Shown here piece after piece: positions 1,920 to 22,613 of a DNA stretch of 24,448 nucleotides. The notes beneath the pieces were generated by a model. The model searched no databases and was not told the DNA's origin. It worked only from the letters and a program-made list of their open reading frames with translations. Positions within the stretch are counted from its first letter, which is position 1. The number at the start of each line of letters is the position of its first letter. A program made the translations under genes and the position numbers. The DNA is from Dictyoglomus sp. NZ13-RE01. GTDB lineage: Bacteria > Dictyoglomota > Dictyoglomia > Dictyoglomales > Dictyoglomaceae. The DNA is taken from positions 1 through 24,448 of the forward strand of contig NIRF01000018.1 of NCBI GenBank assembly GCA_002878375.1, written 5' to 3'.

Positions 1920-1939
1920 TGAATTAAGGAGGAAGTGAA

Positions 1940-2968: not shown

Positions 2969-2969
2969 A

Positions 2970-3812: not shown

Positions 3813-3817
3813 TAAAA

Positions 3818-4804
3818 ATGGGAGAAAGATTATTAGAGTTAAAGGATATAAAAGCATACTATTTGATTGGAAAGCAATATGTTAGAGCAGTGGATGGAGT
3901 ATCTATTGATATAGATGAAGAAATTGTAGGTATTGTAGGGGAAAGTGGAAGTGGAAAATCTACACTAACAAATGTAATGCTAATGAGTATAAAAAGACCT
4001 CTAACTTTAGTTGATGGCAGTGTATATCTTTATTCCAATGGAAACGTCATTAATCTATCATCTTTAAGTAGGGAGGAGCTTCAGAAGAAGATTTGGGGAA
4101 GAGAAATGTCTATTATCCCTCAGTCCGCCATGAATGCTCTTATGCCTACAAAAAGAATTCGTAGCTATATTCTTGATGTAATGAGGTCCCACTTTGAAGA
4201 GATAGATGAGAAAGAGGTCTTGAAGAAGGCAGGAGATAGATTTGAGGAGATTGGTATTTCTCGGGAGTACTTAGATAGGTACCCCTTTGAGCTTTCTGGC
4301 GGAATGAAACAGAGAGCAGTTATAGCGGTAGCTACCTTATTAAATCCAAGGCTTCTTCTTGCAGATGAGCCCACATCTGCATTAGATGTGGCAACACAAA
4401 AGATGGTTTTGAAGACTATTAAAGATTTGAAGGATAGAAACATTGTTAAGAGTATAGTTTTTGTAACTCATGATATAGCTACAGTAAGGCAGATAGCGGA
4501 TAGAATGGTAGTAATGTATGCAGGGAAAATAGTTGAAGAGGCAAGCACCGAAGAGATAGTAAATGAGCCTTATCATCCTTATACAAAGGGGCTTTTACTT
4601 TCAGTAGTAACACCAGAGCCAGAAGTAAAGAAAAGAGGAATTTCATATATTCCAGGTACACCACCTAATCTAATCAATCCTCCTTTGGGATGCAGATTTT
4701 ATCCTCGTTGTCCCAACAGAATGCCTATCTGTGAAAAGGAGGAGCCTGTGCTGAAAAGCATAAATGGTAGAAAGGTTGCATGCTTTTTATATGAGAAGAG
4801 GTGA
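3818..4804 (+). CDS. ABC transporter ATP-binding protein, DppD/OppD type
   Basis: This is one of the two cytoplasmic ATPases that power the importer. It has Walker A GESGSGKST near residue 41, signature LSGGMKQR, Walker B LLLADEPTSALD and the H-loop VTHD. The C-terminal oligopeptide-type extension holds four cysteines (CRFYPRC, PIC, VAC), the pattern that binds an iron-sulfur cluster in some DppD proteins. I prefer ATG 3818 to the in-frame GTG at 3809, because GAGAGGTGA overlapping the upstream stop is a ribosome site correctly spaced for 3818. The junction with the next ATPase gene has the same layout. Confidence 0.93.
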   Translation: MGERLLELKDIKAYYLIGKQYVRAVDGVSIDIDEEIVGIVGESGSGKSTLTNVMLMSIKRPLTLVDGSVYLYSNGNVINLSSLSREELQKKIWGREMSIIPQSAMNALMPTKRIRSYILDVMRSHFEEIDEKEVLKKAGDRFEEIGISREYLDRYPFELSGGMKQRAVIAVATLLNPRLLLADEPTSALDVATQKMVLKTIKDLKDRNIVKSIVFVTHDIATVRQIADRMVVMYAGKIVEEASTEEIVNEPYHPYTKGLLLSVVTPEPEVKKRGISYIPGTPPNLINPPLGCRFYPRCPNRMPICEKEEPVLKSINGRKVACFLYEKR

Positions 4805-4809
4805 TTAAA

Positions 4810-5628
4810 ATGCCATTACTTGAGGTAAGAAATTTAAACAAGATCTATGAGCTTGGGTTTATAAGAAAAAAGTATATTCATGCGGTAAAAAATGTATCCT
4901 TTAGTATGGAGCAAGGAGAGATTGTATCTTTGGTGGGAGAGAGCGGTTCTGGAAAAACAACCACTGCAAAGATAATTCTTGGATTGGTAAAGCCAACCTC
5001 TGGAGATGTAATTATAGATGGAAAGAGATTGGAAGACTACTTTAAGAATATGGAAAGTGTTAGAGATTTGAGAAGAAAGGTTCATGCAGTCTTTCAAGAT
5101 CCTTTTGCCAGCTACAATCCCTTTTATCCTATAGATAGGGTGCTTCACCAGGCAATAAGGTTAATTGGTTTTAGTCCAGAAAGTAACGAGGCAAAGGAAC
5201 TAATAGATATTGCACTGAAAAATGTGGGCTTAGATCCAGAATCAATTCTTGGTAAGTATCCCCATCAGCTTTCCGGAGGAGAAAAACAAAGAATTATGAT
5301 TGCCCGTTGCTTTTTATTGATGCCTAAACTTATTGTGGCAGATGAGCCAGTATCAATGATAGATGCCTCTACCCGTGGAGGTGTAATAAAACTTTTTGAA
5401 AAGTTGAGAAAAGTGCAAAACACATCTGTTTTATTTATAACTCATGATATGGGATTAGCCTATTATATATCTGATAGAATCCTTATTATGCACTTAGGAG
5501 AGATTGTAGAAGAAGGAACACCAGATGAAATAATATCCAATCCTAAGCATGAATATACAAAAAGACTTATCGGGAGTATTCCTACTCTATATAAGAAGTG
5601 GGAAGATTTGGAAAAGGCTAAGGTTTAG
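4810..5628 (+). CDS. ABC transporter ATP-binding protein, DppF/OppF type
   Basis: This is the second ATPase of the importer, forming a heterodimer with the upstream ATPase. It shows Walker A GESGSGKTT near residue 40, a Q-loop in VFQDPFASYNPF, signature LSGGEKQR, Walker B LIVADEPVSMID and switch ITHD. It is about 272 residues long and lacks the cysteine-bearing C-terminal extension of its partner. ATG 4810 is chosen over GTG 4801 because AGAGGTGA, which overlaps the upstream stop, is well spaced for 4810. A strong terminator starts at its stop codon, so this is the last gene of the operon. Confidence 0.93.
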   Translation: MPLLEVRNLNKIYELGFIRKKYIHAVKNVSFSMEQGEIVSLVGESGSGKTTTAKIILGLVKPTSGDVIIDGKRLEDYFKNMESVRDLRRKVHAVFQDPFASYNPFYPIDRVLHQAIRLIGFSPESNEAKELIDIALKNVGLDPESILGKYPHQLSGGEKQRIMIARCFLLMPKLIVADEPVSMIDASTRGGVIKLFEKLRKVQNTSVLFITHDMGLAYYISDRILIMHLGEIVEEGTPDEIISNPKHEYTKRLIGSIPTLYKKWEDLEKAKV

Positions 5629-8977: not shown

Positions 8978-9907
8978 TTAATATCCCAATCTTTTATCCA
9001 CCACATTTACCATCTTACTTATATCAGGATAAGCATTAAGATTTTTTAGAAAGATTTCTAATAATCTATCCATATAAAAGGGAGTAACACCTGCTATATG
9101 AGGAGTAATGATAACACTAGGGAAATTCCAAAGGGGGCTTTCTTTGGGAAGGGGCTCTTCATAGGTAACATCTAATAAGGCTCCTTTTATTCTATTTTCC
9201 TCTAAGGCTTTTATTAGAGCGGATTCTTTTATGATCTGTCCCCTTCCTATATTTACAATTATGGCTGTATTTTTCATAAGACTTAATTCTCTTTCTTTGA
9301 TTAATTCCCTTGTCTCCTCTGTAAGTGGAGCGGATATAACTATGATATCAGATTCTTTTAAAAGTTCATCCAATTCGTTATAAGTTAATAGTTTGTCAGG
9401 AATTACATCCAAATTTTTCTTTTCTAAATTCCTTTTAAGACCTAAGACCCTCATGCCAAAACATTTTGCAATTCTCCCTATTTCTTGCCCTATTTTCCCG
9501 TATCCTATGATACCCATAGTTTTCCCAGTAAGCTCATCACAATCCTCTAAATTTTCTCTTTCCCATTTTCTTTCCATCTGATTTTTTATGGATTTATGAA
9601 TATTTCTCGTGAAAGATAAAATAAGAGCAAAGGTATGTTCTGCAATAGGTTTTGGGTGTACACCACTGGCATTGGTTAATATAACATCAGAGTTTACAAG
9701 TTCTGGATATAAGAAGTTGTCAATACCAGCTCCTCCTGCCTGTATCCATTTTAAATTTTTTGCCATTAAAAATTCTTCTCTTTCTAAATGCCAGCATACT
9801 ATTACTTCAGCGTCCTCTATAGAGTTTACAATTTCAATATCTTTTCTTGTATTTAGTATTCTTTTTATATGCTCTTCTTTAAAGGGGAATTTTATTAATA
9901 TTCTCAT
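8978..9907 (-). CDS. D-isomer-specific 2-hydroxyacid dehydrogenase
   Basis: This enzyme reversibly reduces a 2-keto acid to the D-2-hydroxy acid with NAD(P)H. It has 309 residues. The dinucleotide motif GYGKIG is at 135-140 and the active-site triad is visible: R222 (NIGRGQ), a glutamate at 250/251 (DVTYEEP) and H270 (TPHIAG). The segment after the second Rossmann strand reads LKRN (157-160). Its basic residues, with no acidic one, lean toward NADPH; this is inference. A strong AGGAGGTAG site precedes ATG 9907. It diverges from the tctCBA operon across a shared 175-base gap, so it may process the same imported acid. Glyoxylate/hydroxypyruvate reductase and 2-ketogluconate reductase are the likeliest roles. 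Confidence 0.9.
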   Translation of the reverse strand: MRILIKFPFKEEHIKRILNTRKDIEIVNSIEDAEVIVCWHLEREEFLMAKNLKWIQAGGAGIDNFLYPELVNSDVILTNASGVHPKPIAEHTFALILSFTRNIHKSIKNQMERKWERENLEDCDELTGKTMGIIGYGKIGQEIGRIAKCFGMRVLGLKRNLEKKNLDVIPDKLLTYNELDELLKESDIIVISAPLTEETRELIKERELSLMKNTAIIVNIGRGQIIKESALIKALEENRIKGALLDVTYEEPLPKESPLWNFPSVIITPHIAGVTPFYMDRLLEIFLKNLNAYPDISKMVNVVDKRLGY

Positions 9908-9958
9908 AACTACCTCCTACTTTTTAGTCTTTTATTATTTTATCCAAAGAATTTTTAT

Positions 9959-9987
9959 TTGACATGTAAAAATTATTGTTGTATTAT
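9959..9987 (+). promoter_or_regulatory. Consensus promoter of the tctCBA operon
   Basis: TTGACA (9959-9964), a 17-base spacer and TATTAT (9982-9987) place the RNA start near 9994. This is the best promoter in the window and sits in the divergent gap before tctC. Confidence 0.75.
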
Positions 9988-9995
9988 TTACAATA
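9974..9995 (+). promoter_or_regulatory. Operator-like palindrome over the -10 box
   Basis: TATTGT (9974-9979) and ACAATA (9990-9995) are inverted repeats ten bases apart. They span the -10 box and the predicted RNA start of the tctCBA promoter, where a bound repressor would block polymerase. The IclR-type regulator encoded at 15235 is the natural candidate. The half-sites are short and AT-rich, so chance is possible. Confidence 0.35.
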
Positions 9996-10010
9996 GTATT
10001 GCATATAGTA

Positions 10011-10037
10011 AAAGGAGGTGATATGAATTTTATTTGA
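10011..10037 (+). promoter_or_regulatory. Four-codon leader minigene with a full-length Shine-Dalgarno
   Basis: AAAGGAGGTGAT (10011-10022) matches the whole anti-Shine-Dalgarno end of 16S rRNA. It is directly followed by ATG AAT TTT ATT TGA (10023-10037), a four-residue peptide MNFI. It lies between the promoter and tctC, about 45 bases before the real tctC start. The ribosome site is far stronger than needed and has no longer frame to serve, which suggests a leader that influences translation or mRNA stability of tctC. Confidence 0.45.
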
Positions 10038-10044
10038 TTCCTTC

Positions 10045-10071
10045 CCTTTAAAATTATTCTCTAATTAAAGG
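10045..10071 (+). promoter_or_regulatory. Possible hairpin hiding the tctC ribosome site
   Basis: CCTTTAA (10045-10051) is complementary to TTAAAGG (10065-10071). The second arm is part of the tctC ribosome site AAAGGAGGG. A ribosome stopping at the leader minigene (stop at 10035-10037) would cover the first arm and free the site. The stem is only seven pairs, five of them A-U, so it would be weak at high temperature. Confidence 0.3.
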
Positions 10072-10082
10072 AGGGATTTTTC

Positions 10083-11087
10083 ATGAAATTCAGAATAACC
10101 TTAGCTATCACATTTTTCTTATTGGTCTCCTTAATTCCCCTTCTTGGTGCAAGTGAATGGAAACCAACAAAACCTATAACGATTATTGTTCCTTGGAGTG
10201 CTGGTGGATCAACAGATTTAACAACAAGGACATTAGCAGCTGAGATGGAGAAATATTTAGGTCAAAAAATAATTGTTGTAAATACTCCAGGCGCTGCGGG
10301 TTCTATTGGTACTAAAAATGCTTGGGATGCTCCACACGACGGTTATACTTGGACCGCCAATGCTATAGTTGATATAGTAAAATATCCAGTTTTAGGATAT
10401 CTAAATGTGACTCATAGGGATTGGGCACATTTCTTAGTTATCTATGCGCCAAATGTAATTGCTGTAAGACCTGACTCTAAATATAAAAATTTAAAAGATC
10501 TTATTGAAGATATGAAAGCAAGACCAGGAGAAGTTAAAGTTGCAACTGCAGGAGTAGGAAGTGCTGGACATATAGCTGCAGAAACTCTTGCTATGTATTT
10601 TGGAATAAAATATAGGCACGTTCCTTATGCAGGTGGAAACCCTGCAGTAATCGCTACTGTTAGTGGAGAAGCAGATGTTACTACTCAACTTTCTATGGAA
10701 GTAGCAGAAATGTTGAGAGCTGGAAAATTAAAAGCATTAGCAGTAATGGGTAAAACATCTATTGAAATTACAAGATATGGAAGAATTCCCTCTATAAGAA
10801 CATATTATAGAGATTTTCCTGAGACTGGAGCATATTTTGGGATATTTATTCCCAAAGATGTGCCTGCGGAAGTTTTGTCTGCTGTTACAAAAGCTTTTGT
10901 GAAAGCAGCAGATTCTCCTGCAGTTAAGAAGTATGCAGAAGATAATGGACTTGTTGCAGTTAAAATTTATGGTAAAAAAGCGGACGAGCTTGCCGAACAG
11001 GTTGCATCAAGAATATGTTGGATGCTTTATGATCAAGGAATAGCTCCAATTTCTCCTGAAAAATTCAATATTTTAAGAAGTCAATAA
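10083..11087 (+). CDS. tctC: Tripartite tricarboxylate transporter substrate-binding protein
   Basis: This is the extracytoplasmic binding protein (Bug/TctC family) that captures a carboxylated solute for the TctA-TctB membrane pair. It has 334 residues, with a signal peptide at about 1-23 (Lys/Arg start, hydrophobic core, then GAS before EWKP). Family-typical segments follow in order: KPITIIVPWSAGGSTDLTTR near 30-50, the NTPGAAGSIGT loop near 73-83, HVPYAGGNPAV near 180, and a closing domain. AAAGGAGGG is its ribosome site. It is first in a long operon and is followed by a partial terminator hairpin, which fits the usual need for more binding protein than transporter. The solute is unknown; these proteins bind citrate, other dicarboxylates, sugar acids or aromatic acids. 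Confidence 0.93.
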   Translation: MKFRITLAITFFLLVSLIPLLGASEWKPTKPITIIVPWSAGGSTDLTTRTLAAEMEKYLGQKIIVVNTPGAAGSIGTKNAWDAPHDGYTWTANAIVDIVKYPVLGYLNVTHRDWAHFLVIYAPNVIAVRPDSKYKNLKDLIEDMKARPGEVKVATAGVGSAGHIAAETLAMYFGIKYRHVPYAGGNPAVIATVSGEADVTTQLSMEVAEMLRAGKLKALAVMGKTSIEITRYGRIPSIRTYYRDFPETGAYFGIFIPKDVPAEVLSAVTKAFVKAADSPAVKKYAEDNGLVAVKIYGKKADELAEQVASRICWMLYDQGIAPISPEKFNILRSQ

Positions 11088-11094
11088 TTTACTG

Positions 11095-11119
11095 AGGGGG
11101 GTTATTGAGCCCCCTTTGT
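11095..11119 (+). terminator. Intercistronic terminator-like hairpin between tctC and tctB
   Basis: AGGGGG (11095-11100), a nine-base loop and CCCCCT (11110-11115) are followed by TTGTT. The stem is GC-rich but short and the U-tract is interrupted, so partial termination, or 3'-end protection of tctC mRNA, is likely rather than a full stop. Confidence 0.6.
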
Positions 11120-11135
11120 TAGGGAGGTTAATTAA

Positions 11136-11516
11136 ATGAGAAAAGCAGATTTTCTAACTGGAATATTTTTAATTATTCTCTCTATATTTTTTATAGTTGA
11201 AGCCTTTAAAATGCCTGTTGATCCTGCCTATGGTATTTATGCTTTTCCAGGAATTACTCCTATATTTTTAGCGAGTATTCTCTTAATTTTATCAATTTAT
11301 TTAGTAATAAGATCAAAAGTTAATTTTATTGAGATCTTGAGGGACATGTCTATAAATAAAATGAGAAATAAAGAATTCCAAAATCTCATTTTATCAGGAA
11401 TATTAATGCTTATCTATGTTTTTCTACTGAAAAAAATCCCGTTTTATATTTTGACTTCTCTATTTATTTTTGCCTTTTCGTATATCTTTTATAGAAAAAG
11501 CCTATTTTTCTACTAA
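11136..11516 (+). CDS. tctB: Tripartite tricarboxylate transporter small membrane subunit, frameshifted
   Basis: TctB is the small four-helix membrane subunit that pairs with TctA. The first 121 residues fit the family: KADFLTGIFLIILS at the start, GIYAFPGITPIFLA near 32-46, and a polar middle loop followed by helices. After the AAAAA run at 11495-11499 the frame changes to an unrelated short tail and stops at 11516. The remaining family C-terminus continues in the -1 frame to a stop at 11585-11587, so the intact protein would be about 150 residues. The gene is therefore mutated, mis-sequenced by one A, or read by frameshifting. ATG 11136 has a GGGAGG site. Confidence 0.85.
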   Translation: MRKADFLTGIFLIILSIFFIVEAFKMPVDPAYGIYAFPGITPIFLASILLILSIYLVIRSKVNFIEILRDMSINKMRNKEFQNLILSGILMLIYVFLLKKIPFYILTSLFIFAFSYIFYRKSLFFY

Positions 11517-11587
11517 TCCTTTCTGGAGTTGTTACTTTCGCAATAATTATGCTTTTTTCAAAATTATTTTTAATTCCTATGCCATAA
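11498..11587 (+). other. Out-of-frame C-terminal part of tctB
   Basis: Read in the -1 frame from AAG at 11498, this encodes KKPIFLLILSGVVTFAII and then a final helix ending SKLFLIPMP and a stop. That is the expected last helix and Pro-rich terminus of a TctB protein. It ends 17 bases before tctA. It shows that the break in tctB is a single-base frame change, not an early natural stop. Confidence 0.8.
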
Positions 11588-11604
11588 GAAAGGAGTAATT
11601 TTTT

Positions 11605-13089
11605 ATGGAAGGTATAATATACCTTTTAAATACATTAATAAATTATCTTACAAATCCTTCGATACTTTTTAATTGTGCTTGGGCTACACTTCTTGGAATT
11701 ATTATTGGAGCCTTGCCAGGACTTACAGCTACTATGGGAATTGCTCTTCTTACTGGATTAACCTTTGGTTTTCCATCAGAACTTGCTATAGTAATGCTTG
11801 TTTGCATATATGTTAGTGCAATATATGGGGGAAGTAGATCCGCCATTCTAATAAATATTCCAGGAACTCCAGCAAACGCTGCCACTACTTTGGATGGTTA
11901 TCCTTTGGCAAGATCAGGAAGGGCGGGGGAAGCATTAACTACTGCAACTATTGCATCTGCTATAGGCTCTTTTATTGGTGTTCTTTCTATATTTATCTTT
12001 GCTCCTCTTTTAGGACAGATAGCTTTAAAATTTGGTTCTTGGGAGTTCGCTTGGCTTGCAATATTTGGAATAACCATTTGTGGAACTCTTACTGCACCTA
12101 AAGATCCACTAAAAGGTTGGATAGCTGGATTTTTAGGACTTTTATTAGCTCAGATTGGTATGGAACCAATTGGAGCTTATCCCAGATATTCTTTTGGCTT
12201 TTTACAACTTATGGGAGGTATAGCATTAATTCCTGTATTAGTTGGGGTTTACGGGATACCAGAAATTTTAACAAGTATGAAAGAGTATGGTAAAAGAGAA
12301 ATAATACATGAGATTAAAGGGAGATCAATTCCTAACATATCTATCCTTATTAAAAATTGGGTAAATATTATAAGATCTGGATTGATCAGTGTTTTGATAG
12401 GTGTAATTCCAGGAGTAGGAGAGGACGTTGCTGCATGGGTATCTTATGATCTTGCTAAGAGGGCAAGTAAAGAAAAAGATAAATTTGGAAAAGGCTCCAT
12501 AGAAGGATTAATTGCAGCAGAAACTGGAAATAATGCATGTGTTGGAGGAGCTATAATTCCTGTCTTAACTTTGGCTGTTCCTGGAAGTGCACCAGCAGCA
12601 GTTTTATTAGCAGCGATGTGGCTTCATGGATTAAGACCTGGTCCACTTTTACCTATTGAAAATCCTATGTTTATTTATAAAACAGCTGCTATGATGCTTT
12701 TTGCTACAATTTTAATGACCATATTTGGTTTACTTTTAACAAGACTCTTCCTTAAGATACTAACTATTGATAATGCAATTTTAATGCCTATTATTTTTGT
12801 TCTTTGTGTTTTAGGTGTTTATGCAATAAACGTAAGAATATTTGATATTTTTGTAATGCTAATCTTTGGAATAATAGGATATTTTATGAGAATTATGGAA
12901 TATCCAGCTGCACCATTTGTTTTGGGTTTCATTCTTGGACCTATGGCGGATGAAAATATTAGAAGAGCATTGATCATTACAAAAGGAGACATAACTCCAT
13001 TTTTCACAAGACCAATATGTATTGTACTTATAGTTTTAACTCTTTTATCTGCTCTTGTGAGATATAGACCAAAAGTGAAGGAGGGATAA
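11605..13089 (+). CDS. tctA: Tripartite tricarboxylate transporter large membrane subunit
   Basis: TctA is the 12-helix transport subunit that moves a carboxylated solute into the cell with ions. At 494 residues it has the normal length. The family's two mirrored motifs are present: GIIIGALPGLTATMG at 31-45 and VLIGVIPGVGEDVAAW near 262-278. The hallmark INIPGTPANAATTLDGYPLARSG segment lies near 83-105. AGAAAGGAG is its ribosome site. It follows the frameshifted tctB and is followed four bases later by a dehydrogenase gene. Its intact frame suggests the transporter was recently, or still is, under selection. Confidence 0.94.
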   Translation: MEGIIYLLNTLINYLTNPSILFNCAWATLLGIIIGALPGLTATMGIALLTGLTFGFPSELAIVMLVCIYVSAIYGGSRSAILINIPGTPANAATTLDGYPLARSGRAGEALTTATIASAIGSFIGVLSIFIFAPLLGQIALKFGSWEFAWLAIFGITICGTLTAPKDPLKGWIAGFLGLLLAQIGMEPIGAYPRYSFGFLQLMGGIALIPVLVGVYGIPEILTSMKEYGKREIIHEIKGRSIPNISILIKNWVNIIRSGLISVLIGVIPGVGEDVAAWVSYDLAKRASKEKDKFGKGSIEGLIAAETGNNACVGGAIIPVLTLAVPGSAPAAVLLAAMWLHGLRPGPLLPIENPMFIYKTAAMMLFATILMTIFGLLLTRLFLKILTIDNAILMPIIFVLCVLGVYAINVRIFDIFVMLIFGIIGYFMRIMEYPAAPFVLGFILGPMADENIRRALIITKGDITPFFTRPICIVLIVLTLLSALVRYRPKVKEG

Positions 13090-13092
13090 AAA

Positions 13093-14271
13093 TTGGATAA
13101 AGTTAAAGTTGGTATAGTAGGAACAGGTTTTGTTGCGAATATTCATATGGCATCATATAGGGAAAATTTTGCTTTTTGCGAAGTTGTTGGTGTATGTGCA
13201 AGAAATTATGAGCATGCAAAAGGTTTTGCAGAAAAGTATAACATAAAAAAGGTTTATAAAGATTATCATGAAATGTTAGAAGATAAGGATATTGATGTTA
13301 TAGATATATGTACACCCACTAATGTTCATATGGATATTATATTAGAATCTGCAAAAGCCCATAAACATATTATATGTGAAAAACCTCTAACAGGATATTT
13401 TGGGGAAGATACCGAAAAAGAGGATGTAGGGAATATATCGAAAAGATATATGTGGGAGAAGGTTAAGGAGAAAGTAAATATTATAGAAAAAACTTTAGAA
13501 GGAAACAATGTGAAATTCATGTATGCAGAAAATTTTGTTTACTCCCCTGTAGTTTCCAAAATAAAAAGGATGATAGAGGCTTCTAAAAGTCCAATTATTG
13601 AAATAAGAGCAGAAGAGAGCCATTCAGGATCCCATGCGGAATATTCAAGAAGATGGAGGACTTCTGGTGGAGGAAGTCTCTTAAGAATGGGATCTCATCC
13701 TGTTGGTGTAGTTCTTCACTTAAAAGCCTTTGAGGGAAGACTTAGACATGGAAGACCAATAAAACCTATATATGTGGTAGGAGAAGTTGGGAATTTAACG
13801 AAAATATCAGAGGTTCAAAGGGAAGAAAAGCATTACATTTTTACTAATTGGAGAGATGTTGAGGATTGGTCTTGCCTTATAATAACTTTTGAGGATAATA
13901 GTAAGGCAACAATTTTTGCTTCTGATACAAGTCTTGGTGGTGTCAAAAATCTTGTCTATGTTTATACTTCTCAGGGAGTTATATATGGTAATATAACTCC
14001 AAATAGTACGATATTAGCATATGCTCCATCTCCTGATACGTGGAAGGATGAATATATAGCAGAAAAAATTGAGACAAAAGCGGGTTGGAATTTCCCATTC
14101 CCAGATGAAGATTGGATTCGTGGTTACCCACAAGAAATAAGAGGTTTTATGGAGTGTGTAATTCACAATAGGGAACCAATTTCAGATTTTGAATTAGCAA
14201 AAGATACTGTGAATGTAATTTATGCAGGTTATACTTCAGCTGAAGAAGGCGTGAGAGTAAGGGTTTTGTAA
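13093..14271 (+). CDS. Gfo/Idh/MocA-family NAD(P)-dependent dehydrogenase
   Basis: This is a cytosolic oxidoreductase acting on a sugar, inositol or sugar acid. It has an N-terminal Rossmann fold with GIVGTGFVA at 7-15, the CEKPL motif at 95-99 whose lysine is catalytic, and the GSHPVG segment near 200-205 with the expected histidine. It has 392 residues, slightly long, with a charged insertion just after the EKP motif (about 102-132). The start is TTG 13093, supported by the GGAGGGATA site at the end of tctA and the lack of a better codon. The position directly after the transporter suggests an early step on the imported compound. Substrate and cofactor cannot be read. Confidence 0.9.
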   Translation: MDKVKVGIVGTGFVANIHMASYRENFAFCEVVGVCARNYEHAKGFAEKYNIKKVYKDYHEMLEDKDIDVIDICTPTNVHMDIILESAKAHKHIICEKPLTGYFGEDTEKEDVGNISKRYMWEKVKEKVNIIEKTLEGNNVKFMYAENFVYSPVVSKIKRMIEASKSPIIEIRAEESHSGSHAEYSRRWRTSGGGSLLRMGSHPVGVVLHLKAFEGRLRHGRPIKPIYVVGEVGNLTKISEVQREEKHYIFTNWRDVEDWSCLIITFEDNSKATIFASDTSLGGVKNLVYVYTSQGVIYGNITPNSTILAYAPSPDTWKDEYIAEKIETKAGWNFPFPDEDWIRGYPQEIRGFMECVIHNREPISDFELAKDTVNVIYAGYTSAEEGVRVRVL

Positions 14272-14284
14272 AGGAGGAATGTGC

Positions 14285-15238
14285 ATGGATGTTATTTCCT
14301 ATGGGGAGGTAATGCTAAGGTTTACTCCTGAGAGATTTAGAACTTTTGTTGCAAGCAATTCTTGGAATGTTGAAGTGGGCGGAACTGAAGCGAATGTACT
14401 TATAAACTTGTCTCTTCTTGGTGTATCAACATCTTTTATTACCTTTTTTCCTGACAACTTTTTAGGCTATAAAGCCTATTGCGAATTAAGAAAATATGGG
14501 GTAGGGGTGGAGAAAACGAGGCTTGTTTCTTATGGAAGAATGGGGATGTATTTTGTAGAGTTTCATCACAGGAGTTTTGGTATTCAAGTAATTTATGATA
14601 GGAAAGATTCTGCTTTTTCTCTTACTCCTCTTTCGGAAGAGGATTTAGAATACTTTAGGAGAGCCAAACTTATACACCTTACAGGTATAACTCCCAGTTT
14701 AAGTGATGTATGCAGAGATAATCAGATTAAGATATTAAAGTCTAAGGGGGGAAATCAGAAGATATCATTTGATGTGAATTTTAGGAAGAAGCTTTGGGAG
14801 GAGGAAGATTTTAAGAGATATCTAAAGGAGGTAATGGATTACATAGACATTTTATTTATAAAGAAAGAGGATTACAATATTCTTTTTTCTAATGAAGAAG
14901 ACGAGGAAAAAATTCTTCATAATTTACAGAAAGATTTTGGAGAAGAAAAGATATTTGTTTTGACAAAGGGAGAAGAAGGAGCGACAGCTATTTATAAAGG
15001 TGAAATGTGTTCTGTCTCTTCTTATAATACTGATATAGTAGATCGTATAGGGGCAGGAGATGCTTTTACTGCTGGTTTTCTATATGGGTATTTAAATAAT
15101 AAAGACTTGAAGGAGTGTGTTGATTTGGGTAACATTTTGGCGAGTGTTAAAATGAGTGTATTTGGGGACTTTATCTCGGTTGATAGAAGAACTTTGGAGC
15201 AATTTTTAGAAAATAGTATAAGGAGCGTAGAGAGATGA
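14285..15238 (+). CDS. PfkB-family sugar kinase, 2-keto-3-deoxygluconate-kinase-like
   Basis: This enzyme phosphorylates a sugar or keto-sugar acid with ATP. It has 317 residues and starts with the SYGEVMLRFTPE pattern usual in 2-keto-3-deoxygluconate (KDG) kinases. It then shows GGTEANV near 32, SFDVNFRKKLW near 161-171 (the KDG/fructokinase-type D-N-R-LW motif), and the second PfkB signature DRIGAGDAFTAG at 253-264 with catalytic base D259. ATG 14285 is preferred to ATG 14279, which lies only a base or so from the AAAGGAGG site. It overlaps the IclR gene by four bases. A KDG role fits a sugar-acid pathway, but no aldolase is in the window. Confidence 0.88.
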   Translation: MDVISYGEVMLRFTPERFRTFVASNSWNVEVGGTEANVLINLSLLGVSTSFITFFPDNFLGYKAYCELRKYGVGVEKTRLVSYGRMGMYFVEFHHRSFGIQVIYDRKDSAFSLTPLSEEDLEYFRRAKLIHLTGITPSLSDVCRDNQIKILKSKGGNQKISFDVNFRKKLWEEEDFKRYLKEVMDYIDILFIKKEDYNILFSNEEDEEKILHNLQKDFGEEKIFVLTKGEEGATAIYKGEMCSVSSYNTDIVDRIGAGDAFTAGFLYGYLNNKDLKECVDLGNILASVKMSVFGDFISVDRRTLEQFLENSIRSVER

Positions 15239-15999
15239 AGAATAAAGTAGGAATTGGTTCTGCAGCTCAAACCTTAGAGATTTTGGAAATTTTAATCTTA
15301 GCAGGAAGAGAGTTATCCCTTAAGGAGATAGCTCAAAAGACTAATCTTCATATTTCCACTGTCCATAGATATCTTTCTACTTTGATTGATAAGGGTTATG
15401 TAAGGAAATTACCATCGGGGAATTATAAGCCTGGATTTAGAATTCTTGAGCTTTCTAATTATGTTCTCCAAAGCTTAGATATTAGGGAAATTGCCCATCC
15501 CTTTCTTGTAGAACTAATGAATAATACAAAGCAAACAGTTCATCTTACTATAAAGGACGGTTATGAAGGGGTCTATATAGATAAAGTGGAGGGTCCAGAA
15601 ACTCTACCTATGATGTCAAGAATAGGAATGAGGATGCCTCTTTATTCTACAAGTTTTGGAAAGGTACTACTTGCTTATAGTAGTGAAGAGGAAATTGAAG
15701 ATTATTTAAGACATGTGCCTCTGAAACCAAGAACTAAGAATACTATAACAGATCCAGAAAAGTTAAAGGAGGAGCTTAGGAAGGTAAGAACCTTAGGTTA
15801 TGCTTTTGATGATGAGGAGAATGAAATAGGGATTAGATGCTTAGGAGTACCCATATTTGATTATGCTGGAAAGGTTATAGCAGCTATTTCCATATCAGGT
15901 TACTTTCTGAATTTTGAGGGGGAGAGGAAAGAAAACTTGATTTTGGAGCTTAAGAAAACAGGGGAAAATATAAGTAATGTTTTAAGAAGCAGAAGATAG
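15235..15999 (+). CDS. IclR-family transcriptional regulator
   Basis: This is a DNA-binding regulator of 254 residues. A winged helix-turn-helix occupies about 8-70 (LSLKEIAQKTNLHISTVHRY, then a wing DKGYVRK), and the IclR effector domain fills about 80-250, with RIGMRMPLYSTSFGKVLLAY and ISISGYFLNF as typical segments. Family members such as KdgR and IclR bind small organic or sugar acids and control catabolic genes. It overlaps the kinase gene (ATGA at 15235). It probably controls this operon, possibly through the palindrome at 9974-9995 before tctC; that target is inference. Confidence 0.93.
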   Translation: MKNKVGIGSAAQTLEILEILILAGRELSLKEIAQKTNLHISTVHRYLSTLIDKGYVRKLPSGNYKPGFRILELSNYVLQSLDIREIAHPFLVELMNNTKQTVHLTIKDGYEGVYIDKVEGPETLPMMSRIGMRMPLYSTSFGKVLLAYSSEEEIEDYLRHVPLKPRTKNTITDPEKLKEELRKVRTLGYAFDDEENEIGIRCLGVPIFDYAGKVIAAISISGYFLNFEGERKENLILELKKTGENISNVLRSRR

Positions 16000-16009
16000 G
16001 AGGTTTATT

Positions 16010-17158
16010 ATGGACTTATCCACCAATTATGTTGGCTTAAGGCTTAAAAATCCTATTATTGTTGCTTCATCGGGGCTTACGGAAAATCTTAAGAATATGA
16101 AAAAAGTGGAAGAAAATGGAGCAGGTGCCTTAGTAGTAAAATCTCTATTTGAAGAGGAGGTATGTAGGGTTTCTCCTACTCCCAGGTTTGAGATAATCTC
16201 AAGAACTATGGGACCTCTTCGTTCTCAAACCTTATACTCCTTTGAGCAAGCAAGTCCCTTTTCTCCAGAAGAGTATTTTAAAGAAGTTAGTAAGGCTTTG
16301 AGTATTTTATCAATTCCTGTAATTCCCAGTATTAATTGTATAACCAATGAGGGATGGCTTAAGTACTCTAAAATGGCACAGGAGATTAATGCTCCTGCAT
16401 TAGAGCTGAATGTTTCTTGTCCTCATGCTTCCATCTCTTTTAGGGGACAGGACGTAGATGATACAATTATTAATACAGCAAAACTTGTTAGGGAAAATGT
16501 TGACATACCCTTGATTGTAAAATTGCCTATGCAACTTTCTTCTCCTCTTGCTGTTGCTAAAGAGTTAGAAAGGATAGGTATAAATGGGATTGTAATGTTC
16601 AACAGGTTGACAGGTCTTGATATAGATCTGGAAAAAGAAAAGCCTATTATGCATGGAGGATATGCCGGGCATGGAGGACCATGGGCTCTAAATTATACAT
16701 TGAGATGGATATCCACATCCTCTCCTCATTTGAATATCTCCATTTCCGCATCAGGTGGCGTGGGAAGCGGAGATGATATTGTAAAGTATATCATGGTTGG
16801 GGCGGATGCAGTGCAAGTCTGTAGTATCATTTATCTTATGGGGTATGAAATAATTTCCTCCCTTTTAAATGGAGTAAAAAGATTTATGGAAAATAAAGGT
16901 TACACATCCTTAGAAGATTTTAGAGGGAAGGTTTCAGGGAAAGCTATTCTTGGAAATTATGAGATTGATAGAAGGCATTATTTAAAAGCTCAGATTGATG
17001 AAAACTTATGTAATGCTTGTGGAATATGCAAAAAAGTATGCATCTATGATGCTCCAATTCCAAAAGATGGAAAATATTTTATAACTGAGCTTTGTGATGG
17101 ATGTGGTCTATGTCCTAAATTATGTCCTCAGAAAGCAATTACAATGGTAAAAAGATAA
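16010..17158 (+). CDS. Dihydroorotate-dehydrogenase-like FMN enzyme fused to a 2[4Fe-4S] ferredoxin
   Basis: This 382-residue protein resembles the PreA subunit of bacterial NAD-dependent dihydropyrimidine dehydrogenase. The FMN barrel covers about 1-300, with GLRLKNPIIVASSGLTEN at the start, ELNVSCPHA, the lysine of LIVKLP, and the flavin-phosphate segment ISASGGVGSGDD. From about residue 332, CNACGICKKVC and CDGCGLCPKLCP form two four-cysteine clusters. It should pass electrons between a flavin-bound substrate and a partner. It is followed after 15 bases by a second flavoprotein, not by the usual PreT partner. With no pyrimidine genes nearby, a role in the acid pathway is more likely than pyrimidine breakdown. 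Confidence 0.88.
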   Translation: MDLSTNYVGLRLKNPIIVASSGLTENLKNMKKVEENGAGALVVKSLFEEEVCRVSPTPRFEIISRTMGPLRSQTLYSFEQASPFSPEEYFKEVSKALSILSIPVIPSINCITNEGWLKYSKMAQEINAPALELNVSCPHASISFRGQDVDDTIINTAKLVRENVDIPLIVKLPMQLSSPLAVAKELERIGINGIVMFNRLTGLDIDLEKEKPIMHGGYAGHGGPWALNYTLRWISTSSPHLNISISASGGVGSGDDIVKYIMVGADAVQVCSIIYLMGYEIISSLLNGVKRFMENKGYTSLEDFRGKVSGKAILGNYEIDRRHYLKAQIDENLCNACGICKKVCIYDAPIPKDGKYFITELCDGCGLCPKLCPQKAITMVKR

Positions 17159-17173
17159 GAAAGGATTGAGGCT

Positions 17174-18853
17174 ATGAAGATTATTAAGAGAGATTTAGTG
17201 ATTATTGGTGGTGGTTCTGCAGGAATGCGTTCTGCTCTTTCCGCCTATGAAAAAGATCCTACTCTTTCTATTCTTCTAATTGCAAAGAAGCCTTTAGGGG
17301 TTGGAGGAGTAACTGCACAAGCTTTTTCTGACAGAATGGCTTTTCATGCTACTTTATCTTATACTCTCCCTCCTCAAAAAAACTATTTGTATCATGCATT
17401 AGATATTTACAAGATTGGAGGAGAGGTCTCAGACTATAATTTGGCAGAAATATTGGCTAAGAATAGCGAGTCCGCTATTCAGTATTTGATATCTATTGGA
17501 GTTCCCTTTGTTAGAGATAAAGAGGGAAAGATAGATCAATTTTTAACAGATGGCTCTATCTATCCAAGAGCTTGTTATGTAGGCCCTAATACTGCTATTG
17601 AGATAGCAAAGGCACTACATAGAAAAATAAAGGAAACAAAGATTGAAGTTATGGAGAATGTAATGGCTTATGATTTTATATTAAAAGGAAATAGAGCTGT
17701 AGCCTTAAAAGCCATAGATACAAGTACCCAAGAAATTCTTGTTATTCAGGCAAAAGCCTTTATCTTGGCTGCAGGTGGGGCGGGAGAAATATATCATCAA
17801 AATGTTTTTACCTCAGAAATGACAGGCGATGGTTATGCAATGGCTTTGCGAGCTGGGGCAGAATTGGTAAATATGGAGTTTATGCAGATTGGTTTATGTC
17901 ATCCCAACATATTATTTGCTGAGTCAGGTAGTATATTTAGGGCTTTACCTAAAATTGTAGATGAGAATGGAAAAGAATTTTTACTGGATTATTTAGAGGG
18001 AGAAGATAGAGAAAATTTATGTGCTTTAGAATTTAAGAAGGGAGCTCATTGGCCTGTTTCTTATGAATCTCCAACAAAGGTTATTGATCTTGCCATTTAT
18101 TATCATACCCTTTTAGGACATAAAGTTTATATGGATTTCAACAATAATCCTTCCTACCTGATTTTTGAACATATCCCCGATGAGATACTTCGTTGGAGCG
18201 AGAAAGTAGGGAAGGAGATTTTTAAAGACACAAAACCTTTTGAAAGATTAAGAATTATTAATCCTACTATTATTGAATGGCTGAAAAAATACGGTATAGA
18301 TCTTGAAAAGGATAGACTTCCTGTACAAAATGCTCTACAGCACTTCCAAGGAGGAGTAACTCAAGTTTTTGGAAAGATTGCAGGGGAGAGTGCTATAGAG
18401 TTTGCTAAAAATAAAGATTTCGTTGAAATTTCGGAAGAAGATTTAAAGGAAGAAATTAAAACTATCGGAATTCCAGCGGAAAAAGCAAGGAAGAGAATAA
18501 AAGATATCATGTCGAGTTATGGTTTCTTGGTAAGAATTGAGGAAGGAATAAATAAAGGACTTATAGAGCTTTCTGAGATTAGAAAAGAAGGTATTGCTTT
18601 AGATGAACATGGACCTTCTTATTACTTAGAAACCTTAAATATGTTGGATGTGGCGGAAGTTATTTTGACTGCTATTAAGATTAGAGATGAGAGTAGAGGT
18701 CCCCATTTAAGATTCATAAAGTTTGAGCCCCCCGTCATGGAATTTTTACCTAAGAAAGAGAACTGGAATAAGTATATTGTGATAAAGAAAAAGAATGGCA
18801 AGTTAAGTTATGAGATTAGAGAGCCTGTAAGACCAAGGGAGGATATAAAATGA
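17174..18853 (+). CDS. Fumarate-reductase/AprA-type FAD protein with an internal gap
   Basis: This is a flavoprotein of the FrdA/SdhA/AprA/NadB superfamily. It shows the FAD Rossmann motif GGGSAG at 12-17, AKAFILAAGGAGEIY, and TGDGYAMALRAGAELVNMEF as in the family, and a C-terminal helical domain with KIRDESRGPHLR. After QHFQGGV (389-395) the sequence jumps straight to TQVFGKIAGE. Family members carry about 35-40 residues here, including the GL.A.GE and HGANRLG.NS motifs that bind FAD and supply a catalytic arginine. The reading frame is kept. The protein may be inactive, or specialised. It lies between the ferredoxin-type FMN protein and a zinc dehydrogenase gene, which it overlaps by four bases. 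Confidence 0.85.
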   Translation: MKIIKRDLVIIGGGSAGMRSALSAYEKDPTLSILLIAKKPLGVGGVTAQAFSDRMAFHATLSYTLPPQKNYLYHALDIYKIGGEVSDYNLAEILAKNSESAIQYLISIGVPFVRDKEGKIDQFLTDGSIYPRACYVGPNTAIEIAKALHRKIKETKIEVMENVMAYDFILKGNRAVALKAIDTSTQEILVIQAKAFILAAGGAGEIYHQNVFTSEMTGDGYAMALRAGAELVNMEFMQIGLCHPNILFAESGSIFRALPKIVDENGKEFLLDYLEGEDRENLCALEFKKGAHWPVSYESPTKVIDLAIYYHTLLGHKVYMDFNNNPSYLIFEHIPDEILRWSEKVGKEIFKDTKPFERLRIINPTIIEWLKKYGIDLEKDRLPVQNALQHFQGGVTQVFGKIAGESAIEFAKNKDFVEISEEDLKEEIKTIGIPAEKARKRIKDIMSSYGFLVRIEEGINKGLIELSEIRKEGIALDEHGPSYYLETLNMLDVAEVILTAIKIRDESRGPHLRFIKFEPPVMEFLPKKENWNKYIVIKKKNGKLSYEIREPVRPREDIK

Positions 18854-19935
18854 AATCTGGAGCAATGGTCCTTGAAGAATTTAATAAACCTCTTATTTGG
18901 AGGGAGATAGAAATTCCTGAAATTCCAAAGGGAGGGGTTTTAGTTAGGATGGTTTCCTCTGGTGTGTGTGGTTCTGATGTGCATATGTGGGAAGGCAAAG
19001 ATCCTCGTGTTCCCTTACCAATAATTTTAGGACATGAGGGAGTTGGAGAGATTGTTTATATAAATGGAGAGAAGAAAGATTTAAATGGAGAAGAATTAAA
19101 AGAAAAAGATTTAATTACATGGAATAGAGGGATTGTATGTGGTAAATGTTTTTATTGTAAGGTGGCAAAGGAAGAATATTTATGTCCTAATAGAAAAATT
19201 TATGGAATTAATAGGAGTCTAAAGGAATATCCATATTTATCAGGAGCATATAGTGAATATATGATATTGGATCCAGAAACTGAGATAATCAGGTTGCCTG
19301 AAAATGTGGATCCTGATGTAGCAGTTATAGCAGGTTGTTCTGGGGCAACCGCCATGCATGCTTTTGACGAAATAAAAGAAACCCTTGTGGGAAAAACCGT
19401 GGTAGTGCAGGGGGCAGGTCCTTTAGGAATTTTTGCACTATCCCTTGCTCGTTTTCACGGGGCTGAAAATCTATTGGTTATTGCAGGAAGCGTAGAAAGA
19501 CTTGAGATAGCTAAAAATATTGGCATTGATGTAATTCTGAATAGAAGGGAGACTACTCCTGAGGAAAGAAAGAGAAAAGTTATGGAAGTCACCCATGGAA
19601 GAGGTGCGGATATAGTTATAGAAGCTACCGGAGATAGTAAGGCTCTTTTAGAAGGAATAAGTCTTTTAAGAAAAGGAGGATTATATTTAATAGTAGGTGT
19701 TGCTACACCTCAAGAAAGTATCCCTCTTGATATATATGAAATAGCATCAAAGAATCTAACGATAAAAGGGATATGGGTAAGTTCAGGAAGACATGTATAT
19801 CAGGCAGTATCTTTTGTAGCAAAAAATCAGAATATTTTTGAGTCTATTATTACTCATCGTCTTCCTCTTAGGGAAGCAAATTATGCTCTTCAGCTTATGA
19901 GAGAGAGAAAAGCCCTTAAGGTAGTATTAAAGTAA
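18850..19935 (+). CDS. Zinc-dependent alcohol/polyol dehydrogenase (MDR family)
   Basis: This is a medium-chain NAD(P)-dependent dehydrogenase, 361 residues. Catalytic zinc ligands are visible at C40 (GVCGSDVH), H62-E63 (LGHEG) and C163. Structural zinc cysteines are C97, C100, C103 and C112. The cofactor motif is GAGPLG at 189-194. It is closest in style to sorbitol- or threonine-type enzymes. The second Rossmann strand ends IAGSVERL, without the aspartate typical of strict NAD enzymes. It starts inside the stop of the flavoprotein gene (ATGA) and runs nine bases into the 3' end of the rhamnulokinase gene on the other strand. It probably oxidises an alcohol group in the same pathway. Confidence 0.9.
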   Translation: MKSGAMVLEEFNKPLIWREIEIPEIPKGGVLVRMVSSGVCGSDVHMWEGKDPRVPLPIILGHEGVGEIVYINGEKKDLNGEELKEKDLITWNRGIVCGKCFYCKVAKEEYLCPNRKIYGINRSLKEYPYLSGAYSEYMILDPETEIIRLPENVDPDVAVIAGCSGATAMHAFDEIKETLVGKTVVVQGAGPLGIFALSLARFHGAENLLVIAGSVERLEIAKNIGIDVILNRRETTPEERKRKVMEVTHGRGADIVIEATGDSKALLEGISLLRKGGLYLIVGVATPQESIPLDIYEIASKNLTIKGIWVSSGRHVYQAVSFVAKNQNIFESIITHRLPLREANYALQLMRERKALKVVLK

Positions 19936-21399
19936 TATCTCCTTATATCTTTTGTATTCCTTTTCCCATGTTTCAGTATTTTCAGGATAATATATTTTAG
20001 GCTCAAAGGAATTTTTTATTATCCTCCTCCCCTCTTCAATGTCTTTTACTATTCCTCTTGATATGGCTTGGATTATGATATTGCCCATAGCTGTTGCCTC
20101 TATAGGTCCTGTTACAACGGGCACTCCTAAAACATTTGCAGTAAATTGAGAGAGAAGACTGTTCTGAGACCCTCCTCCTACAATATGTAGCATTCTAATC
20201 TTCTTCTTAAGTATTTTTTCCATGCTCTCGAAAACCTCTTTATATCTAAAGGCTAAGCTTTCAATAATGCATCTTGCTATCTCTCCAATAGTTTCTGGCA
20301 CTTTTTGATTAGTTTTTCTACAATAATCCTGAATAGCTAAAACCATATTAGGAGGATTTAAGAAGGAGACATCATCAGGATTAATAAAACATTGGAAAGG
20401 TTTTGATTCTTCTGCTAATTTTGTTATTTCTGAATAAGAAAGTTCTATTTCTTCCCTCATCCATACTCTTCTTGCGCTCTGTAAAAGCCAAAGCCCCATG
20501 ATGTTTTTCAAAAACCTAAAGGTTTTATTTACTCCTCCCTCATTTGTAAAATTTGCTGTTAATGATTCTTCATTTATTATAGGTTCTTTTAGTTCTACCC
20601 CCATGAGGGACCATGTGCCAGAACTAATGTATGCCCAATCTTTACCTTCCGCAGGTACACCTGCAACTGCACATCCTGTATCATGTTCACAAGGGGCAAT
20701 AACAGAGACATTTTTAAGCCCTAATTCCCTTTTTATACCTTCCGAAAGCTCTCCTATATAACTTCCAGGAGGTAGAATTTCAGGCATAATATTTATGGGA
20801 ATACCAAAACTTTCAAAGAGTTCTTCCTCCCAATTATCCTTAATAGGATTATAGAGTTGAGATGTAGAAGCTATAGAAAACTCTGTTTTTATTTCTCCTG
20901 TTAGCATGAAATTAAATAAATCAGGCATAAATAGAAGCTTATATGCAGATTTAAAGAGGGATGAATTCTCTAATACCATACTATACAATTGAAATAAAGT
21001 ATTTATTTGCATTATTTGAATACCTGTTAAAGAATAGATCTTTTCCTTAGGCATAACTTGGAAGGCTTTTTCTAAAATACCATCAGTTCTATGATCTCTA
21101 TAGCATACAGGAAGTCCTGCCAAATATCCTTCCTTAGTGATTAGTCCAAAATCAACACCCCAAGTATCAATTCCAATACTCTCAATATCAGGATGTTTTA
21201 AAAAGGCTTTATTTATTCCTTCCTTTATTTCTTGAAAAATTTGAGGTACATTCCAATATAATCGACCTAAAATCTCAACGGGTCTATTTATGAATCTATG
21301 GACTTCTTCAACTTCTAATTTGTTCTCTTTTAGAATCCCTACCAAGGCTCTTCCACTTTCAGCCCCTAAATCAAAAGCAAGAAATTTCTTAGGCTCCAT
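19927..21399 (-). CDS. rhaB: Rhamnulokinase
   Basis: This enzyme phosphorylates L-rhamnulose to L-rhamnulose 1-phosphate. It is a FGGY kinase of 490 residues: N-terminal ATPase fold with FAFDLGAESGRALVG-like start at 5-20, the rhamnulokinase-specific EEVHRFINRPVEILGRLYWN at about 32-51, PCEHDTGCAVAGVPA around the catalytic aspartate, and MLHIVGGGSQNSLLSQFTA in the C-terminal domain. AAGGAGGAAG precedes ATG 21399. It is last in a minus-strand operon and directly follows the rhamnose isomerase gene. Its 3' end overlaps the convergent dehydrogenase gene by nine bases, and I see no terminator there. Confidence 0.93.
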   Translation of the reverse strand: MEPKKFLAFDLGAESGRALVGILKENKLEVEEVHRFINRPVEILGRLYWNVPQIFQEIKEGINKAFLKHPDIESIGIDTWGVDFGLITKEGYLAGLPVCYRDHRTDGILEKAFQVMPKEKIYSLTGIQIMQINTLFQLYSMVLENSSLFKSAYKLLFMPDLFNFMLTGEIKTEFSIASTSQLYNPIKDNWEEELFESFGIPINIMPEILPPGSYIGELSEGIKRELGLKNVSVIAPCEHDTGCAVAGVPAEGKDWAYISSGTWSLMGVELKEPIINEESLTANFTNEGGVNKTFRFLKNIMGLWLLQSARRVWMREEIELSYSEITKLAEESKPFQCFINPDDVSFLNPPNMVLAIQDYCRKTNQKVPETIGEIARCIIESLAFRYKEVFESMEKILKKKIRMLHIVGGGSQNSLLSQFTANVLGVPVVTGPIEATAMGNIIIQAISRGIVKDIEEGRRIIKNSFEPKIYYPENTETWEKEYKRYKEILL

Positions 21400-21419
21400 A
21401 AGGGCTTCCTCCTTACTTC

Positions 21420-22613
21420 TTAACTTCTTTCCTTAATAATCTTCTCCAAATAGCCACTTTCTCTAAAAGCCTTCAATGGGTCTAATGGGAGATTCATCTC
21501 TTCCCTTACTTTGTAAATTAATGGCATAACGTCTGTGTCAAAAGCGGACATTAATGTGTTCTCTGCCATAACTATATCTCCTTCCTCTTGATATTTCTTT
21601 AAGGCTTTCATATCTACAATTAGTGCCTTTGCATATAATCTGTATATATTCTCTACGCTTTGAATCATCTCTTCTATTTTATTCTTTAAGTTATGTGATT
21701 CATCTATCATATAGGCTATATCAACCTTTAATCCATCCTTTTCTGCCTTTATTATTTCATGGAATATAAGAAATAGCTCGTAAGGATTAATAGAACCTGT
21801 TGTTAAATCGTCATCTGCATATTTCTTGTTATTAAAATGGAAACCTCCTAATTTTTCTTCATCTAATAATACTGCTACAATTTGTTCTATGTTTGTACCT
21901 AAGGGATGGTGTCCTAAGTCTACTAATACATATGCTCTATCTCCTAATTTCTTTGATAAATTAAAAGCAGATCCCCAATCAGGTATATCAGTATGATAGA
22001 AGGCAGGCTCAAAGAATTTGTATTCAATAAGTAGTCTCATATTTGGTTCTAAATGTTTATAAACTTCTTTTAGGCTCTCTTCTAATCGATGTTTTCTTGC
22101 TCTAAAATCATCTTGCCCTGGATGATTGGTACCATCTGCAAGCCAAAGGGATATGTCTCGTGATTTTAGTTTTTTAGCAATCTCAATGCACTCTAATATA
22201 TGGTTAATTGCCTTTTTCCGAATCTTCTCATTAGGATGGCACAAGCTCCCCAATTTATAGTCATCATCTTGGAACAAATTAGGATTTATTGCACCGGGTC
22301 TAACACCTAAAGATATAGCATAATTATAAAGCTCCTCCCAATTATCTGTCATATCCCAAGGAATATGGAGGGCAACAGTAGGACATATACCTGTTAACTT
22401 ATGAACTATACTGGCATCCTGGATCTTTTCCTTAACATTTCTTGCGGAACCCTTTTGTTTAAATATGGCAAATCTTGTCCCTGAATCCTGATATCCCCAA
22501 CTTGGAGTTTCCACTTTAAAATTTTTAAGGCGATCTTCTATCTCATCTACATTAATTCCTTTATCTTCCAATTTCTTTCTTAATATCTCATAGCTTTTTT
22601 CATAATCTTTCAT
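21420..22613 (-). CDS. rhaI: L-rhamnose isomerase, RhaI type
   Basis: This enzyme converts L-rhamnose to L-rhamnulose. It is the xylose-isomerase-fold type known from Pseudomonas stutzeri and Thermotoga, not the E. coli RhaA type. The metal ligands align by position and spacing with those I recall for the P. stutzeri enzyme: E197, D232, H259 and D267 for one site, and H235 and D269 for the other (IEYK, VDLGHH, GFHFNN, YADDDL). It has 397 residues. An AGGGGGTT ribosome site lies at the end of the upstream kinase gene, two bases away. It is followed by rhaB, so rhamnose use is well supported. Confidence 0.92.
   Translation of the reverse strand: MKDYEKSYEILRKKLEDKGINVDEIEDRLKNFKVETPSWGYQDSGTRFAIFKQKGSARNVKEKIQDASIVHKLTGICPTVALHIPWDMTDNWEELYNYAISLGVRPGAINPNLFQDDDYKLGSLCHPNEKIRKKAINHILECIEIAKKLKSRDISLWLADGTNHPGQDDFRARKHRLEESLKEVYKHLEPNMRLLIEYKFFEPAFYHTDIPDWGSAFNLSKKLGDRAYVLVDLGHHPLGTNIEQIVAVLLDEEKLGGFHFNNKKYADDDLTTGSINPYELFLIFHEIIKAEKDGLKVDIAYMIDESHNLKNKIEEMIQSVENIYRLYAKALIVDMKALKKYQEEGDIVMAENTLMSAFDTDVMPLIYKVREEMNLPLDPLKAFRESGYLEKIIKERS

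Follow-up and report, generated by a model that had tools for sequence, protein, structure and literature searches.

Which compound is handled by the gene cluster at positions 8978-19935 of contig 18 of the assembly of the hot-spring bacterium Dictyoglomus sp. NZ13-RE01, and which steps do its two flavoproteins carry out? The contig, referred to here as the window and analyzed over its full 24,448 nucleotides, belongs to an assembly of 1,927,012 bp in 34 contigs obtained from Illumina metagenome reads (PMC5854780). The cluster encodes a tripartite tricarboxylate transporter (TctCBA, TTT), a Gfo/Idh dehydrogenase, a PfkB kinase, an IclR-family regulator, a PreA-like and a FrdA-like flavoprotein and a zinc-dependent dehydrogenase (ZnDH). 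An initial annotation had proposed an acid-oxidation pathway with its own importer. From the sequences compared here, we consider it fairly probable that the cluster is a regulon for the catabolism of pectin-derived uronates, with 2-keto-3-deoxygluconate (KDG) as the point of convergence and with an uncharacterised two-flavoprotein step.

Five Dictyoglomaceae genomes (G000-G004, two of them single-contig) were compared, of which G000 is NZ13-RE01 and G003 and G004 were taken as D. turgidum and D. thermophilum, names that were inferred. In D. turgidum and D. thermophilum the genes PfkB-IclR-PreA-FrdA-ZnDH follow an ATP-binding cassette (ABC) sugar transporter and a GH4 gene. The complete order in D. 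turgidum is RhaA-RhaB-pectate lyases-pectinesterase-ABC-GH4-PfkB-IclR-PreA-FrdA-ZnDH, one block in which the core forms the end of a pectin locus. The genes Dtur_0427-0440 have been annotated in the same way, with a rhamnose isomerase (Dtur_0427), pectate lyases (Dtur_0430-0432 and 0435), a pectinesterase (0433) and an alpha-galacturonidase (0440) (PMC5167688). Going by gene order, the core would be Dtur_0442-0446. PfkB-IclR-PreA of G001 and G002 are located after a pectate lyase and a GH4 gene on another contig with FrdA-ZnDH apart, and both PreA and FrdA are kept in these genomes though unlinked there. The core PfkB-IclR-PreA-FrdA-ZnDH, as found in the genomes of the relatives, belongs to the Dictyoglomus pectin locus.

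Outside the family, a PreA match was obtained in 11 of 103 Thermotogota genomes. Eight of these neighbourhoods contain the complete set TctCBA-Gfo/Idh-PreA-FrdA-ZnDH, one is truncated where its contig stops and the other two have no such cluster; PreA homologues of genomes G102 and G086, which have no FrdA neighbours, were left out of the count. That the set recurs both within Dictyoglomaceae and in eight or more genomes of the Pseudothermotoga type is more than chance. The linkage of the genes is genuine, and a check in relatives showed that they remain together, as two blocks that are partly separable. The importer did not hold as a defining part of the pathway: G002, a further member of the genus, no longer has TctCBA or most of Gfo/Idh and retains FrdA-ZnDH, and D. 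turgidum and D. thermophilum carry the core with an ABC transporter in place of TctCBA.

A TATACAA-type element is common to the pectin-operon promoters of four relatives' loci (L041, L042, L044 and L052), which were aligned by eye and used to build an operator matrix; a palindrome scan with a GC filter had given no common motif among the promoters, and the motif emerged later from the alignment and the matrix. The top match in the whole window lies on the TctC promoter (Table 1), and further peaks were obtained at 6007 before TctC in L039 and at 11283 before the Gfo/Idh remnant in L040. Because the matrix from pectin promoters peaks at the TctC promoter, the core and the TctCBA operon likely form one IclR regulon via this putative operator, which supports what was at first a guess. 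Alternatively, the TctCBA-Gfo/Idh half might be an independent module that takes up and oxidizes a different carboxylate and that became attached to the pectin core in certain lineages only. The core occurs without this half in G002, D. turgidum and D. thermophilum, and a second TctCBA-M24-Gfo/Idh module exists without PreA and FrdA, but the shared putative operator and the fixed order TctCBA-Gfo/Idh-PreA-FrdA-ZnDH in Pseudothermotoga argue against it, and we regard a separate module as possible though doubtful. This second module (TctCBA-M24 peptidase-like-Gfo/Idh-DctP-like; L077:6182-12551, L078-L082) is itself conserved in Dictyoglomaceae and one Thermotogota genome.

The kinase points to a sugar acid, as had been proposed initially. 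Among solved structures the window PfkB is best matched by the KDG kinases 2afb (131 bits) and 1v19 (123 bits), no NCBIfam model reaches its cut-off, and the protein is the only close KDG-kinase homologue in the five Dictyoglomaceae genomes (orthologues at least 463 bits, next-best at most 68 bits). An aldolase and a dehydratase-like gene were located elsewhere in the genome, as had been expected: 2-keto-3-deoxy-6-phosphogluconate (KDPG) aldolase (PF01081) is encoded once per genome in all five Dictyoglomaceae (G000:C4:97943-98506), and three of these genomes also carry a gene resembling galactarate/altronate dehydratase (G000:C9:19785-20159). Uronate isomerase UxaC (PF02614) gave no match in G000-G004 (0/5), with the same search positive in 5/5 Thermotogota and 7/14 controls, and mannonate dehydratase UxuA (PF03786) likewise gave no match in these five genomes. 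Converting galacturonate to KDG consumes two electrons net and releases water; this balance does not fit the initial designation as acid oxidation and makes a reductive flavoenzyme step chemically plausible.

KDG could also arise without the flavoproteins by the ordinary unsaturated-galacturonate route, in which products of pectate lyase yield 4-deoxy-5-keto-uronate, a KduI/IolB isomerase and ZnDH (as KduD substitute) form KDG, PfkB and KDPG aldolase follow, and PreA and FrdA would be accessory redox balancers. A KduI/IolB-family gene seems to share an operon with the KDPG aldolase gene in G000 and lies beside or near that gene in G003 and G004, and the pectate lyases of the locus and the closeness of ZnDH to 1vj0 fit this route as well. 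However, the G000 isomerase passes the IolB cut-off (268 vs 205), and the joint retention of PreA and FrdA in two phyla is unusual for mere accessories, so that we consider this route unlikely. Elsewhere, L088:3530-9684 harbors a regulator, a D-2-hydroxyacid dehydrogenase, a KDPG aldolase, a tripartite ATP-independent periplasmic (TRAP) transporter and a short-chain dehydrogenase/reductase, a cluster that resembles the uncharacterised Thermotoga UctR locus.

The alignment of the PreA-like protein to dihydropyrimidine dehydrogenase extends to the catalytic cysteine, the residue that is altered in the 1h7x chain; the motif NVSCPH is invariant and two [4Fe-4S] motifs are present. It scores under the PreA equivalog cut-off (173.6 vs 335), and its AlphaFold model was of low confidence (predicted local distance difference test score, pLDDT, 54) and was not used. 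In genome G033, an 858-aa fusion (L045:1439-4015) combines a PreA-like domain with one that, judged from its sequence, looks like an NAD(P)H-dependent GltD/PreT domain and would pass on electrons from NAD(P)H. For the FrdA-like clade, the model of the L023 orthologue (pLDDT 76) has the succinate dehydrogenase/fumarate reductase fold, with 5vpn_A as top PDB match (E 1e-37). The initial name, fumarate-reductase-type flavoprotein, holds for the FrdA/SdhA fold and not for the active site: the whole clade has QIG for QFHPTG and SPTKVID or NxSGYID for RDxxxR, whereas QFHPTG and RDxxxR are present in the fumarate reductases, succinate dehydrogenases and NadB proteins compared. RPGGNS takes the place of RLGGNS. 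The sequences from Dictyoglomus, Pseudothermotoga and G033 form a well-supported group in the tree. Archaeal cousins of FrdA are encoded beside KDPG aldolase and PfkB (L033), PfkB and PreA (L032), mandelate racemase/enolase dehydratase-like genes (L029, L123, L124) and ZnDH (L030, L033, L124). Judged by fold and sequence family, PreA could instead be a dihydropyrimidine or dihydroorotate dehydrogenase and FrdA a fumarate reductase, neither having to do with the sugar acid; given a separate FrdA clade devoid of QFHPTG and RDxxxR, and no pyrimidine genes seen nearby, we hold this to be very unlikely.

Another group of archaeal FrdA proteins (L126-L132) has QFHPTG and is encoded next to fumarase-like genes, so its members were classed as fumarate reductases and excluded. 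FrdA-fold proteins with QIG were also seen in Lachnospiraceae (near position 10001), in L034 near TctC/TctA and a mandelate-racemase-like gene and in L036 with coenzyme A-transferase-like and TRAP-like genes nearby. A uroporphyrinogen decarboxylase (URO-D)-family gene adjoins FrdA-ZnDH in G001 (L039:13111-14205), and a URO-D-like gene adjoins PreA in G033 (L045:29-1189).

By far the nearest solved structure of ZnDH is 1vj0, which we take to be TM0436 of Thermotoga maritima. In that organism pectin raised aldH-pelB more than 17-fold (PMC3750489). A route of the inositol type (IolG/IolM/kinase), as in Thermotoga, suggested by the family-level likeness of Gfo/Idh, ZnDH and PfkB and by an IolB-like gene elsewhere, was rejected as highly improbable, as all three enzymes fall far under the curated cut-offs (90/355 for IolG, 149/450 for IolM and 122/300 for PfkB) and the context is pectin.

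In the pectin-uronate regulon favored here, the ABC or the TctABC transporter would import fragments of pectin or else a free sugar acid, and ZnDH, together with Gfo/Idh where present, would convert hydroxyl groups of the acid to keto groups and back. The two flavoproteins (PreA-like with FMN and iron-sulfur clusters, FrdA-fold with FAD) are probably partners and would perform a single two-electron step on an intermediate derived from a uronate, PfkB would phosphorylate KDG, the KDPG aldolase encoded elsewhere would split the product, and the IclR protein would sense a pathway acid. UxaC and UxuA both went undetected in the five Dictyoglomaceae, and the flavoenzyme step may take over part of the route to which they belong. 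More tentatively, and with less confidence than in the regulon itself, a flavoenzyme route that turns galacturonate or another pectin acid into KDG, with the PreA-like and FrdA-fold proteins in place of isomerase, reductase and dehydratase, might be common to Dictyoglomus, Pseudothermotoga and some archaea.

Several observations weigh against this reading. The Pseudothermotoga genomes possess UxaC in addition to the cluster and have no PfkB in it, so that their cluster may serve another acid. The evidence for a pectin transporter, lyases and alpha-galacturonidase comes from the loci of relatives, and the KduI/IolB-family gene lies near the KDPG aldolase. The identification of TM0436 with aldH of the pectin-induced aldH-pelB operon would follow from gene order. 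Finally, random 24-kb sequence scored at least 14.9 with the operator matrix in 4 of 40 simulations, with maxima up to 18.7; the case for the operator lies in position and not in score, as the three matches coincide with expected promoters.

All ten reading frames named initially exist at or near the positions given there and their families agree by Pfam and NCBIfam (Table 1), with nearly all NCBIfam scores under the curated cut-offs. From TctC to ZnDH the genes lie on one strand with gaps of 48, 88, 3, 7, -4, 10, 15 and -4 nucleotides. Membership of the D-2-hydroxyacid dehydrogenase is weak, because the gene is divergent and was not found in the cluster neighbourhoods of the other genomes read. 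All three TTT components are present by Pfam. Rfam and transfer RNA scans of the window gave no match. Upstream of the cluster, positions 243-5628 hold a complete oligopeptide/oligosaccharide-type ABC transporter operon (OppABCDF-like).

Table 1. Features of the cluster and its flanks in the window (FMN, flavin mononucleotide; FAD, flavin adenine dinucleotide).
Feature	Position	Strand	Evidence or remark
D-2-hydroxyacid dehydrogenase, divergent, membership doubtful	8978..9907	-	Pfam 2-Hacid_dh_C
Promoter-like TTGACA-17-TATTAT	9959..9987	+	Read from sequence, putative
Putative operator of the operon's IclR regulator, TTTACAATAGTATTGCATATAGTAAA	9987..10012	+	Matrix match 15.5, best in window
TctC solute-binding protein	10083..11087	+	Pfam PF03401; nearest solved structures are TTT/Bug proteins
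TctB, frameshifted near 3' end in assembly	11136..11516	+	Pfam PF07331; C-terminus in other frame
TctA permease	11605..13089	+	Pfam PF01970, 483 bits
Gfo/Idh/MocA dehydrogenase	13093..14271	+	Pfam PF01408; far under inositol dehydrogenase cut-off; orthologues adjoin TTT
PfkB kinase, predicted KDG kinase	14279..15238	+	Nearest solved are KDG kinases 2afb, 1v19
IclR-family regulator, KdgR-like but under cut-off	15235..15999	+	PF01614/PF09339; KdgR model 186 vs cut-off 275
PreA-like FMN/2x[4Fe-4S] protein, dihydropyrimidine dehydrogenase-type catalytic Cys137	16010..17158	+	Alignment to dihydropyrimidine dehydrogenase C-terminal part
FrdA-fold flavoprotein, non-fumarate-reductase clade; 36 residues missing at 18358/18359 junction	17174..18853	+	Alignment, tree, fold
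Zn-dependent dehydrogenase (ZnDH)	18850..19935	+	Nearest solved 1vj0, E 1.5e-154
Rhamnulokinase and rhamnose isomerase, neighbours	19927..22613	-	Also beside pectin locus in D. turgidum, D. thermophilum

Two genes look damaged in this strain, and its copy of the cluster may therefore be non-functional. The residues absent from the FrdA-like protein are gone in frame between V395 and T396 and comprise the GLYAAGE...GGQHGANRPGGNSLLD FAD motif, which is kept by every aligned relative; because this segment is missing, the window FrdA is probably an inactive copy unless the assembly is wrong. TctB stops early by the frameshift, relatives being about 150 aa long, and the C-terminus that continues in the other frame is relative-like. 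Since the sequence is an Illumina metagenome assembly, an assembly fault could underlie either lesion. The initial proposal of acid oxidation with its own importer was only partly right, and it had missed the pectin context, the operator, the missing uronate isomerase, the altered FrdA site and both lesions.

The T. maritima UxaR pectin/galacturonate regulon consists of aldH-pelB-gnd-uxaRED-gntEK and kdgAK-uxuBA (PMC3750489). The Dictyoglomus system shares with it the pectin context, a probable ZnDH orthologue, KDG kinase and KDPG aldolase, but its regulator is of the IclR and not the GntR family, UxaC/UxuA belong to the T. maritima system, and no PreA or FrdA is named there. The classical UxaC-UxaB-UxaA-KdgK-KdgA hexuronate pathway (PMC6353982) also converges on KDG and KDPG, but UxaC and UxuA are undetected here and flavoproteins are present. 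Enterobacterial KdgR regulons likewise place pectin and KDG genes under an IclR-family regulator, whereas operator and gene content differ and the regulator described here is under the KdgR cut-off. With dihydropyrimidine dehydrogenase/PreA, the PreA-like protein has in common the FMN domain with the NxSCPH cysteine and two [4Fe-4S] motifs; it differs in having no PreT partner nearby, in its sugar-acid context and in a score under the PreA cut-off (174/335). Intact FrdA-like orthologues share fold and FAD motifs with the fumarate reductase/SdhA/AprA superfamily, but their active-site motifs are replaced and no SdhB-type partner adjoins the gene. As the initial annotation had stated for characterised pathways, no published description of this gene set was found in literature searches, which covered open-licence papers.

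D. turgidum reportedly grows on pectin, and its published genome analysis offered only sugar epimerases for galacturonate. A gene that would be annotated as fumarate reductase is shown by its motifs to lack the catalytic signatures of that enzyme, which corrects an annotation trap. If the proposed function is true, the block would fill the galacturonate gap with an undescribed enzyme subfamily.

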